Shown here one piece after another: positions 12,874 to 28,737 of a DNA stretch of 64,000 bases (position 1 is the first letter of the stretch; each line of letters opens with the position of its first letter). Below the pieces are notes generated by a model. It was not told the origin of the DNA, ran no database searches, and saw only the letters and a list, made by a program, of their open reading frames with translations. The DNA comes from Actinophytocola algeriensis (GTDB lineage: Bacteria > Actinomycetota > Actinomycetes > Mycobacteriales > Pseudonocardiaceae). Location of the stretch: assembly GCF_014203735.1 (NCBI RefSeq), contig NZ_JACHJQ010000011.1, positions 124,001-188,000 on the forward strand, given 5' to 3'. The position numbers and the translations under genes are program-made.

Positions 12874-14333
12874 GAGGCCGACCTTAACCGCACGACCCGC
12901 GCGACGAAGACCGCGAGCCCGGACACGGCCGCGGCACCGAGCACCACGGTCAACGGCAACGCGAAGTAGAACAGCTGCGCCCACAACACCGCGCGTCCGG
13001 CGCTGATGAACGAGACGACCTGCGGGTAGAGGACGAACAGCAGCGCGGGCACCAGACAAGGCACCAACCGCAGGCAGATCCACCCCCAGCGCCGAAGTTG
13101 TCCACAGCCCACCGAGTTATCCACAGCTGAGCCCTGCCCCATGGCGTTCACCCCCACCACCTGATAGACTGGCAAGGCGGGACGCCCCCGGGACAGGGTG
13201 GGGGTCGGGGTGTTTGCGGTCGTGATCTTCATGCGGCGGGTTGCCCACCTGTTTGCCCTGGTCACGCCTAGTGTGCCCAGTGTCAGCGCCGCCACGCCGA
13301 TCGCCGCCAGCACCCACTCGAACAGTTGTCTCGAGCCGCCCGGTGTCCCCGGGGCCTCGCCTCTCGTGAGCGCCACCAGCCCGGCCAGGATGTCGCCCGT
13401 CTCGTCGGTCAGGCCCGCCCCGTTGGTCATCACCGCGTACCCGTGACCCGTCGCCGGGTCGATGGCCTGCATCGCGTTGTACGTCCACAGGTTCCCGCTG
13501 TGCACCAGCAGCCCGTTCTCGCCGGGCGACCAGCCCATGCCGTACTCGTCCACCTCCGACGGCTCGTGCATCGCCGTCAGCATCGAGCCGGGGAACGGGC
13601 CGTGGCCGTTCTGCGCCACGAGCCACCTGCCCATGTCGGCCGCTGTCGTCACGACCGCGCCGGAACCGTTCACCTCGGGCCCGCCGTCCAGTTCCGGCCG
13701 CGAGAACCACAGGCCGAACAGCGAGTTGTAGCCGTCCGCCGCCGGTCCGCCGACCGTGGAGTCACGCATGTCCAGCGGCTCGAACACCGCCTCCCGCACG
13801 TACTCGTCGAACGGCAGGCCCGACACGACCTCCACGAGCCGTGCCGCCAGGTCGTAGTTCGCGTTGCTGTACGACCAGGCCGTGCCGGGCGGCGCCGCCA
13901 GGGTCGCGTCGAAGAGGTCCGCGTACTCGGCGAGCGTCCGCGCCGACTCCAGCTCGCCGATGTTCACCGATGGGTCCGCGAGCCCGGACGTCTGGTTCAG
14001 CAGCTGCCGCACGGTCACCCCGCCGGGCACGTTCGGCAGCCGCACCGGGTCGTCCAGGCCGAGCCGCCCGTCCTCGACGAGCGTCATGACCGCCGCCGAG
14101 GTGAACGACTTGCTCACCGACGCCACCCGCATCGGCGTGTCCGCGGTGACCGGCCGCCCGGTCGAGTCGTGCCCGGCACCGGTCGCGTGCACGACCCGGT
14201 CGCCGTGGGTGACGGCCACGGACACGCCGGGCAGCCCCGTGTCGTCCAGGGCCTGGGCGAGAAAGTTGTCGATCGACGTCGGCGCCGGTGCGGGCGAAAC
14301 CGCCAACACCAGCCCGACCACCAGTGACCTCAT
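12870..14333 (-). CDS. Serine hydrolase (class C beta-lactamase / D-Ala-D-Ala carboxypeptidase fold) with C-terminal membrane segments
   Basis: A 487-residue protein with a short N-terminal signal (MRSLVVGLVLAVSPAPA). The catalytic domain has Ser-x-x-Lys in ASVSKSF, Tyr-x-Asn in WSYSNANYD and the His-x-Gly triad equivalent in LVHSGN. A C-terminal part follows with three hydrophobic helices. Between the first helix and the other two lies a stretch of about 45 residues of odd composition (from TTANTPTPTLSRGRP to GCGQLRRWG), encoded by DNA carrying two DnaA-box-like sequences; it looks like an in-frame insertion. The gene is translationally coupled to the kinase and regulator that follow. Likely an extracytoplasmic peptidase or esterase; antibiotic hydrolysis is possible but not shown. 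Confidence 0.82.
   Translation of the reverse strand: MRSLVVGLVLAVSPAPAPTSIDNFLAQALDDTGLPGVSVAVTHGDRVVHATGAGHDSTGRPVTADTPMRVASVSKSFTSAAVMTLVEDGRLGLDDPVRLPNVPGGVTVRQLLNQTSGLADPSVNIGELESARTLAEYADLFDATLAAPPGTAWSYSNANYDLAARLVEVVSGLPFDEYVREAVFEPLDMRDSTVGGPAADGYNSLFGLWFSRPELDGGPEVNGSGAVVTTAADMGRWLVAQNGHGPFPGSMLTAMHEPSEVDEYGMGWSPGENGLLVHSGNLWTYNAMQAIDPATGHGYAVMTNGAGLTDETGDILAGLVALTRGEAPGTPGGSRQLFEWVLAAIGVAALTLGTLGVTRANRWATRRMKITTANTPTPTLSRGRPALPVYQVVGVNAMGQGSAVDNSVGCGQLRRWGWICLRLVPCLVPALLFVLYPQVVSFISAGRAVLWAQLFYFALPLTVVLGAAAVSGLAVFVARVVRLRSAS
13098..13125. promoter_or_regulatory. Pair of DnaA-box-like 9-mers inside the serine hydrolase gene
   Basis: TTGTCCACA (13098-13106) and TTATCCACA (13117-13125) lie in the same orientation 19 bp apart. 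Both match strong DnaA boxes. A further TTATCCACA is at 14421-14429, with a weaker TCGTCCACA at 14378-14386. Binding is inferred from sequence only. Confidence 0.45.
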
Positions 14334-24329: not shown

Positions 24330-25010
24330 ATGGCAAACCTGGCTCTCACCTCCCGTTCGCTGCCGGTCCGCGGCGTGGTCCTCACCGCGCCGCGGCCGGC
24401 GCCCGTCGGTGTCTTCCTTGGTGTGGCCGGGCTGGTTTTCGCCGGACTGCTGATGGGCGGCCTCAACGTTGTCGCCGCCAACCACATGAACCCCCTGAAC
24501 ACGACGATGTCCGACTACGTGTTCGTCCCGGGCGCGGGCTGGATGTTCCCGGCCGCCCTGCTGGCGATGTGCGTCGCGGGCGCCGGTGTCGGCATTGGAC
24601 TGTCGGCTCGCGGACTGCTGAGCGGGGTGCTGCCGAAACTGACGCTCGGCCTGGCGATGCTGGCTTTGGTGCTGGCAGCGGCGTTCGAGACGGACCTGGG
24701 TGACCAGTCGGTGACGCTGTCCGCACAGATCCACCGCTACGCGGCCGGAGTCGTGTTCTTCTGCGTACCGATCACGGCGGTACTGGTGGCACGACGGATG
24801 GCCGGGCGACGCGCGCTCTACCTGGGTGCCGCGGTCGCGACGGTGCTGTTGGCACTGTTCCTGACCTGCCACCTCGGCCCGATGCCGGACGCACTGGGCG
24901 AGCTGAGCGGCTTGCTGCAGCGGCTGCTGTTCGTGGCGGAGCTGGCGGTGCTGGGGCAGTTGGTGTGGGTCGCGTCCCGCGCGCCGGTCGAGTACGCACT
25001 GGCCGCATGA
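24330..25010 (+). CDS. DUF998 multi-pass membrane protein
   Basis: A 226-residue protein with about six transmembrane helices: GVFLGVAGLVFAGLLMGGL, GWMFPAALLAMCVAGAGVG, LTLGLAMLALVLAAAF, VVFFCVPITAVLVA, LYLGAAVATVLLALFLTCHL and LLFVAELAVLGQLVWVA. The conserved MSDYVFVPGAGW after helix 1 is the DUF998 signature. Function unknown. It is transcribed towards, and is convergent with, the small-RNA-like array that begins 31 bp after its stop. Confidence 0.82.
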   Translation: MANLALTSRSLPVRGVVLTAPRPAPVGVFLGVAGLVFAGLLMGGLNVVAANHMNPLNTTMSDYVFVPGAGWMFPAALLAMCVAGAGVGIGLSARGLLSGVLPKLTLGLAMLALVLAAAFETDLGDQSVTLSAQIHRYAAGVVFFCVPITAVLVARRMAGRRALYLGAAVATVLLALFLTCHLGPMPDALGELSGLLQRLLFVAELAVLGQLVWVASRAPVEYALAA

Positions 25011-25040
25011 CCGCCGACACGGTCTCGCGGACTCGCCGGA

Positions 25041-25110
25041 CCGATTGAACGGTCCATTCAATCGACCCGGGGGTCCCCCGTTCTTCAACACTACCGGAGG
25101 GCACCGACAT
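25041..25110 (-). ncRNA. Array unit 1: PafBC-like promoter and candidate double-hairpin RNA
   Basis: On the minus strand ATGTCGGTG (25110-25102), 8 bases, then TAGTGT (25093-25088) fits TTGTCRGTG-N8-TAnnnT with one mismatch. A start about 7 bases later would begin an RNA at about 25081 that folds CGGGG-GAC-CCCCG and then the GATTGAA/TTCAATC hairpin (25064-25042). Transcription is inferred. Confidence 0.5.
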
Positions 25111-25162
25111 TTCCGGCCCACTCAGGTCGGGAACGTCGGAACACCGTCCGATGGTGTGATCT

Positions 25163-25230
25163 CCGATTGAAAGTCCCATTCAATCGCCCAGGGGGACCCC
25201 TGATTTCACGGTACCATCGGCCACCGATGT
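25163..25230 (-). ncRNA. Array unit 2: PafBC-like promoter and candidate double-hairpin RNA
   Basis: On the minus strand ACATCGGTG (25230-25222), 8 bases, then TACCGT (25213-25208). The -35 is the weakest of the three; the -10 and spacing are exact. The predicted RNA starts near 25201 with CAGGG/CCCUG, then the GATTGAA/TTCAATC hairpin (25186-25164), one base closer than in unit 3. Confidence 0.48.
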
Positions 25231-25282
25231 TTTTGGCTCTGTTGAGCCGTTGTGGGGCGATGTGTGCCTGATCGTGTGGTCA

Positions 25283-25351
25283 CCGATTGAATGGACCGTT
25301 CAATCGGCACGGGGGTCCCCGTACTTTCATGGTAGCGGCGAGCACCGACAA
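25283..25351 (-). ncRNA. Array unit 3: PafBC-like promoter and candidate double-hairpin RNA
   Basis: On the minus strand TTGTCGGTG (25351-25343), 8 bases, then TACCAT (25334-25329) is a full match to TTGTCRGTG-N8-TAnnnT. The 15 bases CGGAAATTGTCGGTG are identical to those upstream of the ligase gene at 28773-28759. The predicted RNA begins near 25322 with ACGGG/CCCGU, then the GATTGAA/TTCAATC hairpin (25307-25283). Confidence 0.55.
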
Positions 25352-25428
25352 TTTCCGCTCGTGTGGGCCTTGTCGTCGGAAACATTGCTCGATGGTGTGT
25401 ACTCCGATTGAAAGGTCCTTTCAATCGG

Positions 25429-25739
25429 TCAGCGGGGGTCGTTCGCATCACTCGGTGATCGGTCAGTTGGGGGTTCGTGGGTGGTCATGACGTCCGTTCG
25501 CGGAACCAAGTGCGGTCGTCAGGCTTACCCCGGCGGTCCTGTGTGACCAGATCAGACAGTTGTGGGATGCGCAGTGGTTGAGGATGCGTTCTCACGGCTG
25601 ATCTCCAGCCACTCGGTAGCGAAACCGTTGATGTGCGTTGGTCTCGACGCCGAAGGACTGGATTCTGCCAGGCCACTCGGCAGGTTTCCTCGCCCGTGGC
25701 TTCCACCACCAGCGGTGGTCGGGTGGCGGACTTCGTCGG
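25429..25739. other. Spacer between the array and guaB1
   Basis: No convincing gene on either strand. On the minus strand, just after the guaB1 stop, the stem-loop around CCACCGCTGGTGG (near 25708-25725) could terminate guaB1 transcription. A minus-strand open frame at 25485-25709 has no recognisable features. Confidence 0.4.

Positions 25740-28737
<2,998 letters not shown>

Follow-up and report, generated by a model that had tools for sequence, protein, structure and literature searches.

A dispersed hairpin repeat with a PafBC-type promoter in Actinophytocola algeriensis and its relatives

A tandem array of four short units in Actinophytocola algeriensis is best accounted for, with a probability that we put at about 0.57, as an insertion-prone, tandem-amplifying repeat whose DNA damage promoter is aimed at its own hairpins. 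The array lies in the stretch of 64,000 nucleotides that we analysed (hereafter the window) and is, by sequence comparison, one of many copies of a dispersed, insertion-prone family. In this account a unit represents a single copy of a non-coding repeat, about 75-120 bp long and known so far from one bacterial family, which would colonise new sites and be amplified there in tandem. Copies that are intact carry a PafBC-type promoter from which transcription would be expected to begin at the G-run within a G/C hairpin, and in the subtype found in the window the first hairpin is followed by a second, covarying one. Single-stranded DNA arising from damage would activate PafBC, which would recruit RNA polymerase to many copies at once; each copy would then yield a short RNA that opens with a 5′ hairpin and stops at hairpin 2 or shortly beyond it. 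Selection on promoter and hairpins would explain why the element persists, whether what is selected is its own spread or an advantage that the RNAs give the host.

Array anatomy and promoter type

The palindrome GATTGAA-N7-TTCAATC occurs four times in the window, starting at 25043, 25165, 25285 and 25406, with unit-to-unit spacings of 122, 120 and 121 bp. This bears out an earlier note on this DNA, which had counted four units about 121 bp apart and had placed each start one base low, at the preceding C. With its flanking letters the palindrome reads CGATTGAA-N7-TTCAATCG, once per unit; with up to two mismatches allowed, the pattern was found 4 times in the 64 kb, and 100 dinucleotide shuffles gave 0.01 matches on average. 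The minus-strand arrangement that had been described for three units is present in units A, B and C: a -35 element, exactly 8 bases, a -10 element, 7-8 bases, a G/C hairpin (hairpin 1, G4-5/C5) and then the palindrome (hairpin 2). Unit A (25042-25110, minus strand, by direct sequence reading; 82.0 bits with model R1) has its -35 element ATGTCGGTG at 25110-25102, the spacer at 25101-25094, the -10 element TAGTGT at 25093-25088, hairpin 1 at 25080-25068 and hairpin 2 at 25064-25042. The corresponding parts of unit B (25164-25230, minus strand, by direct reading; 73.8 bits with R1) are ACATCGGTG at 25230-25222, TACCGT at 25213-25208, hairpin 1 at about 25201-25190 and hairpin 2 at 25186-25164, and those of unit C (25284-25351, minus strand, by direct reading; 77.2 bits with R1) are TTGTCGGTG at 25351-25343, TACCAT at 25334-25329, hairpin 1 at about 25320-25311 and hairpin 2 at 25306-25284. 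Units A and C hold the only two matches in the window to the full motif WTGTCRGTG-N8-TAnnnT, which none of 100 shuffles contained; in unit B, ACATCGGTG-N8-TACCGT is off the consensus at two core bases of the -35. Unit D (25405-25427, minus strand) is a remnant in which hairpin 2 alone is left, the promoter and hairpin 1 having decayed, and R1 aligns there at positions 43-68 only (20.9 bits).

The array sits in a 729-bp gap (25011-25739) between the stop codons of a DUF998 protein gene (24330-25010, plus strand; gene call, Pfam PF06197) and a gene of the guaB1 family, GMP reductase/IMPDH-related (25740-27233, minus strand; NCBIfam NF005869 and NF052358, Pfam PF00478). The guaB1 gene shares the strand of the units and lies upstream of them. 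It had been stated that no gene lies ahead on the transcribed strand and that the next gene is convergent, and this holds: the next gene is the DUF998 gene, and 31 bp separate its stop codon from the second hairpin of unit A. Rfam 15 gave no match in the window at the gathering score, a sigma-70 scan found no sigma-70 promoter at the array, and no U-tract follows hairpin 2. On the plus strand, at 25215-25229, the -35 region of unit B forms a small hairpin followed by T5 that is terminator-like for the convergent DUF998 gene.

Mycobacterial promoters of the P1 (RecA-NDp, PafBC) type have the motif tTGTCRgtg-8 nt-TannnT (PMC5656591) and PafBC is triggered by single-stranded DNA (PMC11804915), as given in the accessible parts of these two papers; the -35, the 8-nt spacer and the -10 of the repeats are the same. 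Genome-wide, WTGTCRGTG-N8-TAnnnT has 92 matches, versus 1 for the reversed control. By a rule of our own, based on the bases after the -10, we sorted the 91 sites with distinct 60-mers into 48 with a G-run after the -10 (class 2), 32 with a start codon nearby, as in leaderless genes (class 1), and 11 that are neither. Twenty-nine class-1 sites are followed by an open reading frame of more than 60 aa; the distance from the -10 to the start codon is 7 nt in 16 of them and 6 nt in 10, and the other 3 differ. Pfam was run on 26 of these 29 leaderless products, and the domains of 12 of the 26 mark them as proteins of repair, recombination or replication: RecA, NAD ligase, RecO, UvrC, SbcD, RecQ, a DEDD/GIY-YIG exonuclease, a PD-(D/E)XK nuclease, a beta clamp, a SNF2 helicase, a RecN/SMC-like protein and a RadA-like protein (the names RecN and RadA are our assumption, from domain make-up). 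Two adjacent genes (L374) encode WYL and WCX domains, one of them with HTH_PafC; NCBIfam gave no family for either, and we take them to be pafB and pafC. The earlier assignment of the array's promoters to the PafBC type is sound, given that the motif stands upstream of leaderless recA, ligA, uvrC, recQ, recO and sbcD in this genome and that pafB/pafC are present; together with the 12 repair-type products, the latter also indicates that the motif marks the damage regulon here. Elsewhere in the genome, a WYL-domain regulator (L209) lies behind its own leaderless PafBC-type promoter, with an HTH_PafC match under the curated cut-off, and a DNA polymerase III beta-clamp gene (L035) has a PafBC-type promoter ahead of it.

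The start-codon spacing of the leaderless genes can be used as a ruler for the repeats. In class 2, the GGGG begins 7 nt after the -10 at 40 of the 48 sites, 8 nt at 5 and 6 nt at 3, under a sorting rule that itself admitted G-runs about 4-11 nt after the -10. Measured in this way, repeat transcripts would be expected to begin on the G-run, in agreement with the start at the G/C hairpin that had been predicted for the array, and hairpin 1 would come to lie at the 5′ end of the predicted RNA. RNA folds of single units were not clearly better than those of shuffles (z from -2.2 to +0.5), and with z no better than -2.2 we rejected single-strand folding by itself as support for an RNA.

A repeat family of the Pseudonocardiaceae

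Although the units had been presented as a local array, they belong to a genome-wide repeat family. The core GTCGGTG-N8-TAnnnT-N6-CGGGGG, which combines the promoter with five Gs (G5), has 69 exact copies in this genome. It was found in 83 of 386 Pseudonocardiaceae genomes and 10 of 46 genera, with the reversed control at 0 among the matches listed. In an order-wide draw of 397 genomes, the core was present in 11, all of them among the 79 Pseudonocardiaceae, and in 0 of the 318 genomes from other families of the order; judged by these searches, the repeat would so far be seen in one bacterial family. Copy numbers are uneven: in a single genus (g10), certain genomes hold more than 40 copies and others lack the core. 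The core pattern also matched 6 stretches in a viral collection.

Among the matches listed for a covariance model built from nine copies, every one of the six genomes of the genus is represented at E <= 1 (150 candidates per genome being scored), and 74 places in 46 sequence sources were matched by the model. The earlier note had suggested looking for the pairing of promoter and hairpins in relatives, and the pairing was found in congeners: a composite copy also stands ahead of murF in G003. Tandem arrays have spacings near 93, 113 or 121 bp, and the largest one found comprises five units (G002, L276). A fifth copy of the palindrome elsewhere in this genome (L001) has the -35 element CTGTCGGTG and CAGCGT instead of a -10, and the arms GATTGAA/TTCAATC are identical in the window, L001, L037 and L043. 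Among 20 loci in other genera, which were picked by the core pattern, a hairpin-1-like G/C palindrome is present at 6 of 21 sites, and the hairpins are therefore not fixed parts of the repeat; promoter and G5 at these sites are given by the search pattern and hence are no evidence of sharing. In a further genus, G180 has the palindrome with a G-run ahead of it and no TCGGTG within 90 nt. An exact scan of genome contigs for the palindrome returned at least 118 stretches, nearly all from unrelated bacteria.

Some other repeated words came up in these searches. The pattern GAANGGNMCNTTC, tried and abandoned, mostly retrieved a different repeat, GAAGGGGCCCTTC. Among the matches listed, this is a separate dispersed repeat of GAAGGGGCCCTTC palindromes, often 30 bp apart in small arrays, for example at C1:106168-106270 of this genome (G000) and at L220-L228. 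The word GATGATCTT lies about 20 nt past the start of the G-run in 8 loci (L357-L364, in G013, G015 and G021), and a TTGATC-like word occurs within 55 nt in 10 of the 48 class-2 copies of this genome.

The sites TGTGGACAA and TTGTCCACA, which we take to be DnaA-box-like, accompany many class-2 copies: one or the other lies 10-75 bp upstream of the -35 at 33 of 48 class-2 sites versus 4 of 32 class-1 sites. At the class-2 loci L006-L035 and L162-L212 these sites are often paired, near -30 and -49 from the -35, steady in position and variable in orientation. The window array, which is of the double-hairpin subtype, has no such site, and the window's only two lie at 13098 and 28790.

Conservation, covariation and site differences

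Comparison of the units within nine arrays gave identities of 75% for the -35, 79% for the -10, 79% for hairpin 1 and 81% for hairpin 2, versus 54% for the promoter spacer, 68-69% for the discriminator and linker and 45-52% for the flanks, a contrast that is inflated by a search model that rewards boxes and hairpins. The claim that the elements are kept while the spacers vary is in agreement with these figures. Within the window array taken by itself, the -35 is 78% identical, the -10 67% and the hairpins 88 and 86%, and the spacer is 50%, the upstream flank 40% and the downstream flank 50% identical.

The earlier note had proposed a covariance check of the hairpins, and hairpin 2 does covary, as judged from alignments of its copies. 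Among nine copies, 7 cells are changed on both sides of a pair, versus 3.4 in shuffles (0 of 500 reach 7); two of five measures were not above shuffles in this small set, namely double-changed pairs (2 versus 2.2) and pair types (4 versus 3.7). Among 54 copies, the number of double-changed cells rises to 58, versus 23.8 in shuffles (0 of 1000 reach 58), and 40 such cells fall among the 41 non-seed copies. The 54 are what is left of the 74 model matches once 20 are set aside in which no core forms 4 or more of the 8 pairs; this filter is itself biased towards pairing, and the shuffles leave relatedness in. At least 6 of the 8 hairpin-2 pairs are present in 44 of the 54 copies, hairpin 1 in 46, the -35 core in 35 and the -10 in 43. 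Retention of the palindrome without its promoter had been named as an observation that would speak against the proposed pairing; it is seen in part, at G180, at murF in G002 and at the murF copy of this genome, and both boxes are intact in 32 of the 54.

Three sites are filled in some relatives and empty in others, a difference that would reflect gain rather than loss: one beside guaB1, one between murE and murF and one in an oxidoreductase linker. At the first, the guaB1 and DUF998 orthologues abut tail to tail in the congeners G002 and G003 (L327, L329), which have no counterpart of the 729-bp gap; we read the gap as an insertion. G001, G004 and G005 are uninformative at this site, as the convergent neighbour was not found in their loci, and in a model scan of the loci of all five relatives the sole unit match was one of 14 bits (E 0.05) in G001. 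The murE and murF genes overlap by 4 bp in G001, G004 and G005 and have a unit between them in G003, where it lies about 20 nt upstream of murF, and in this genome, where the copy has lost its -10 and one -35 core base and has kept hairpin 2 with arms that are altered yet complementary. The gap there in G002 is 169 bp long; it contains two cores that resemble hairpin 2, lacks TCGGTG and is not matched by the model. The interdomain linker of the oxidoreductase gene holds three in-frame 93-bp units in this genome and one in G002, and the model found no unit there in G001, G003, G004 or G005; hairpin 2 persists in this coding linker where the promoter is lost. At L268 (this genome) and L271 (G002) the units are translated in frame, as three 31-codon copies versus one.

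Arrays also differ in length at a common site, with five units in G002 versus two in G003. Some copies lie inside or directly ahead of coding genes, and 5 of 31 double-hairpin loci fall within genes called by a home-made gene caller. Flanking direct repeats would be no more than suggestive of target-site duplication, given one clear case among the 25 loci tested (L282, 16 bp with 1 mismatch) and a 9-bp repeat at the G003 murF copy that was spotted by eye; five others of the 25 have repeats of 9-13 letters that resemble chance or neighbouring copies.

Alternative readings and biological meaning

Rickettsia palindromic elements are palindromic repeats that can sit in frame within protein genes. 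The in-frame copies described here can be likened to them, although in another taxon, and to our knowledge those elements carry no damage promoter. Correia repeat enclosed elements of Neisseria, according to the accessible part of PMC2649163, are short and dispersed, can give a promoter and meet RNase III, vary in position between genomes and disrupt coding genes. The present repeats resemble them as short, dispersed, promoter-bearing elements that vary in position and occur within coding genes; unlike them, they have a PafBC stress-type promoter, form head-to-tail arrays and belong to another taxon. REP/REPIN sequences with their RAYT transposases are similar in that they, too, form hairpins, number in the tens and pass on mostly by vertical inheritance, but REPINs are inverted REP pairs (PMC8049555, as far as accessible), whereas the window units are direct tandem repeats with a promoter. 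The PafBC targets described in the accessible part of PMC5656591 are protein genes, whereas our repeats bear hairpins instead of a gene. By analogy, the repeat may work like a promoter-bearing dispersed element such as Correia, and its membership in a named mobile family is putative. Among the literature matches listed (titles and the beginnings of abstracts, with few subscription journals), we found no dispersed PafBC-promoter repeat, which is no proof of absence.

Hairpin 2 persists where the promoter is lost, in G180, in the coding linker and at the murF sites of G002 and this genome, and this could mean that the repeats are simply selfish palindromic DNA, with hairpins that serve REP/REPIN-like DNA copying and a promoter that is an inherited, rarely used passenger. 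In-frame copies within a coding gene and the patchy copy number within one genus point the same way. We nevertheless find this reading unlikely, since the promoter boxes are about as conserved between units as the hairpins are, while the spacer between the boxes is not, and since the start expected from the leaderless genes lands on the G-run. Host small-RNA genes dedicated to this locus, induced by damage and with targets of their own, would fit the promoter and hairpin anatomy and the covariation, and tandem copies would raise the dose. Such a self-contained RNA locus, as the earlier note had envisaged, is not supported by the wider comparison: the array's site is empty in G002 and G003, which makes a dedicated locus of four units unlikely, and copies lie at many unrelated sites, some in or before coding genes. 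We therefore give this reading little credence.

The single-hairpin copies might instead act on their convergent neighbour, as damage-induced antisense promoters or 3′ terminators. Class-2 copies do face a convergent gene far more often than class-1 sites with a called gene (34 of 48 versus 2 of 31; Fisher p 7e-9, with the home-made caller), 13 of these 34 have the stop codon at a distance of 10-27 nt from the expected start, and unit B holds one terminator-like plus-strand site. Double-hairpin loci, however, show little orientation bias, with the next gene opposite in 16 of 31 and on the same strand in 14, and a terminator scan gave 1 site versus 0.7 expected by chance; a 3′-end role is improbable. 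The identical arms in the window and at three other loci, the unit about 20 nt ahead of murF in G003 and the 14 double-hairpin loci followed by a same-strand gene would suit a palindrome that is the operator of a repressor or activator, with the units as ordinary regulated promoters or leaders. That is very improbable, as the arms change in other copies with pairing kept and no gene follows the window array on its strand.

Many copies carry a damage-type switch aimed at small folded sequences rather than at a gene, and they may therefore release folded RNAs when the genome is injured. A bolder version, which we hold only tentatively, is that mobile elements captured the damage switch: PafBC would fire tens of copies, and the 5′-hairpin RNAs would aid copying at breaks or form a bulk non-coding arm of the host damage response. 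By our sorting rule, hairpin repeats (48) outnumber leaderless genes (32) among the exact PafBC motif sites of this genome. Should the copies fire, a large and so far unannotated RNA output would belong to the damage response, and the expression of a repeat family would be tied to DNA damage. The copies are also natural promoter variants with which the requirements of PafBC could be probed, and their positions, which differ between species, can reveal how such elements move.
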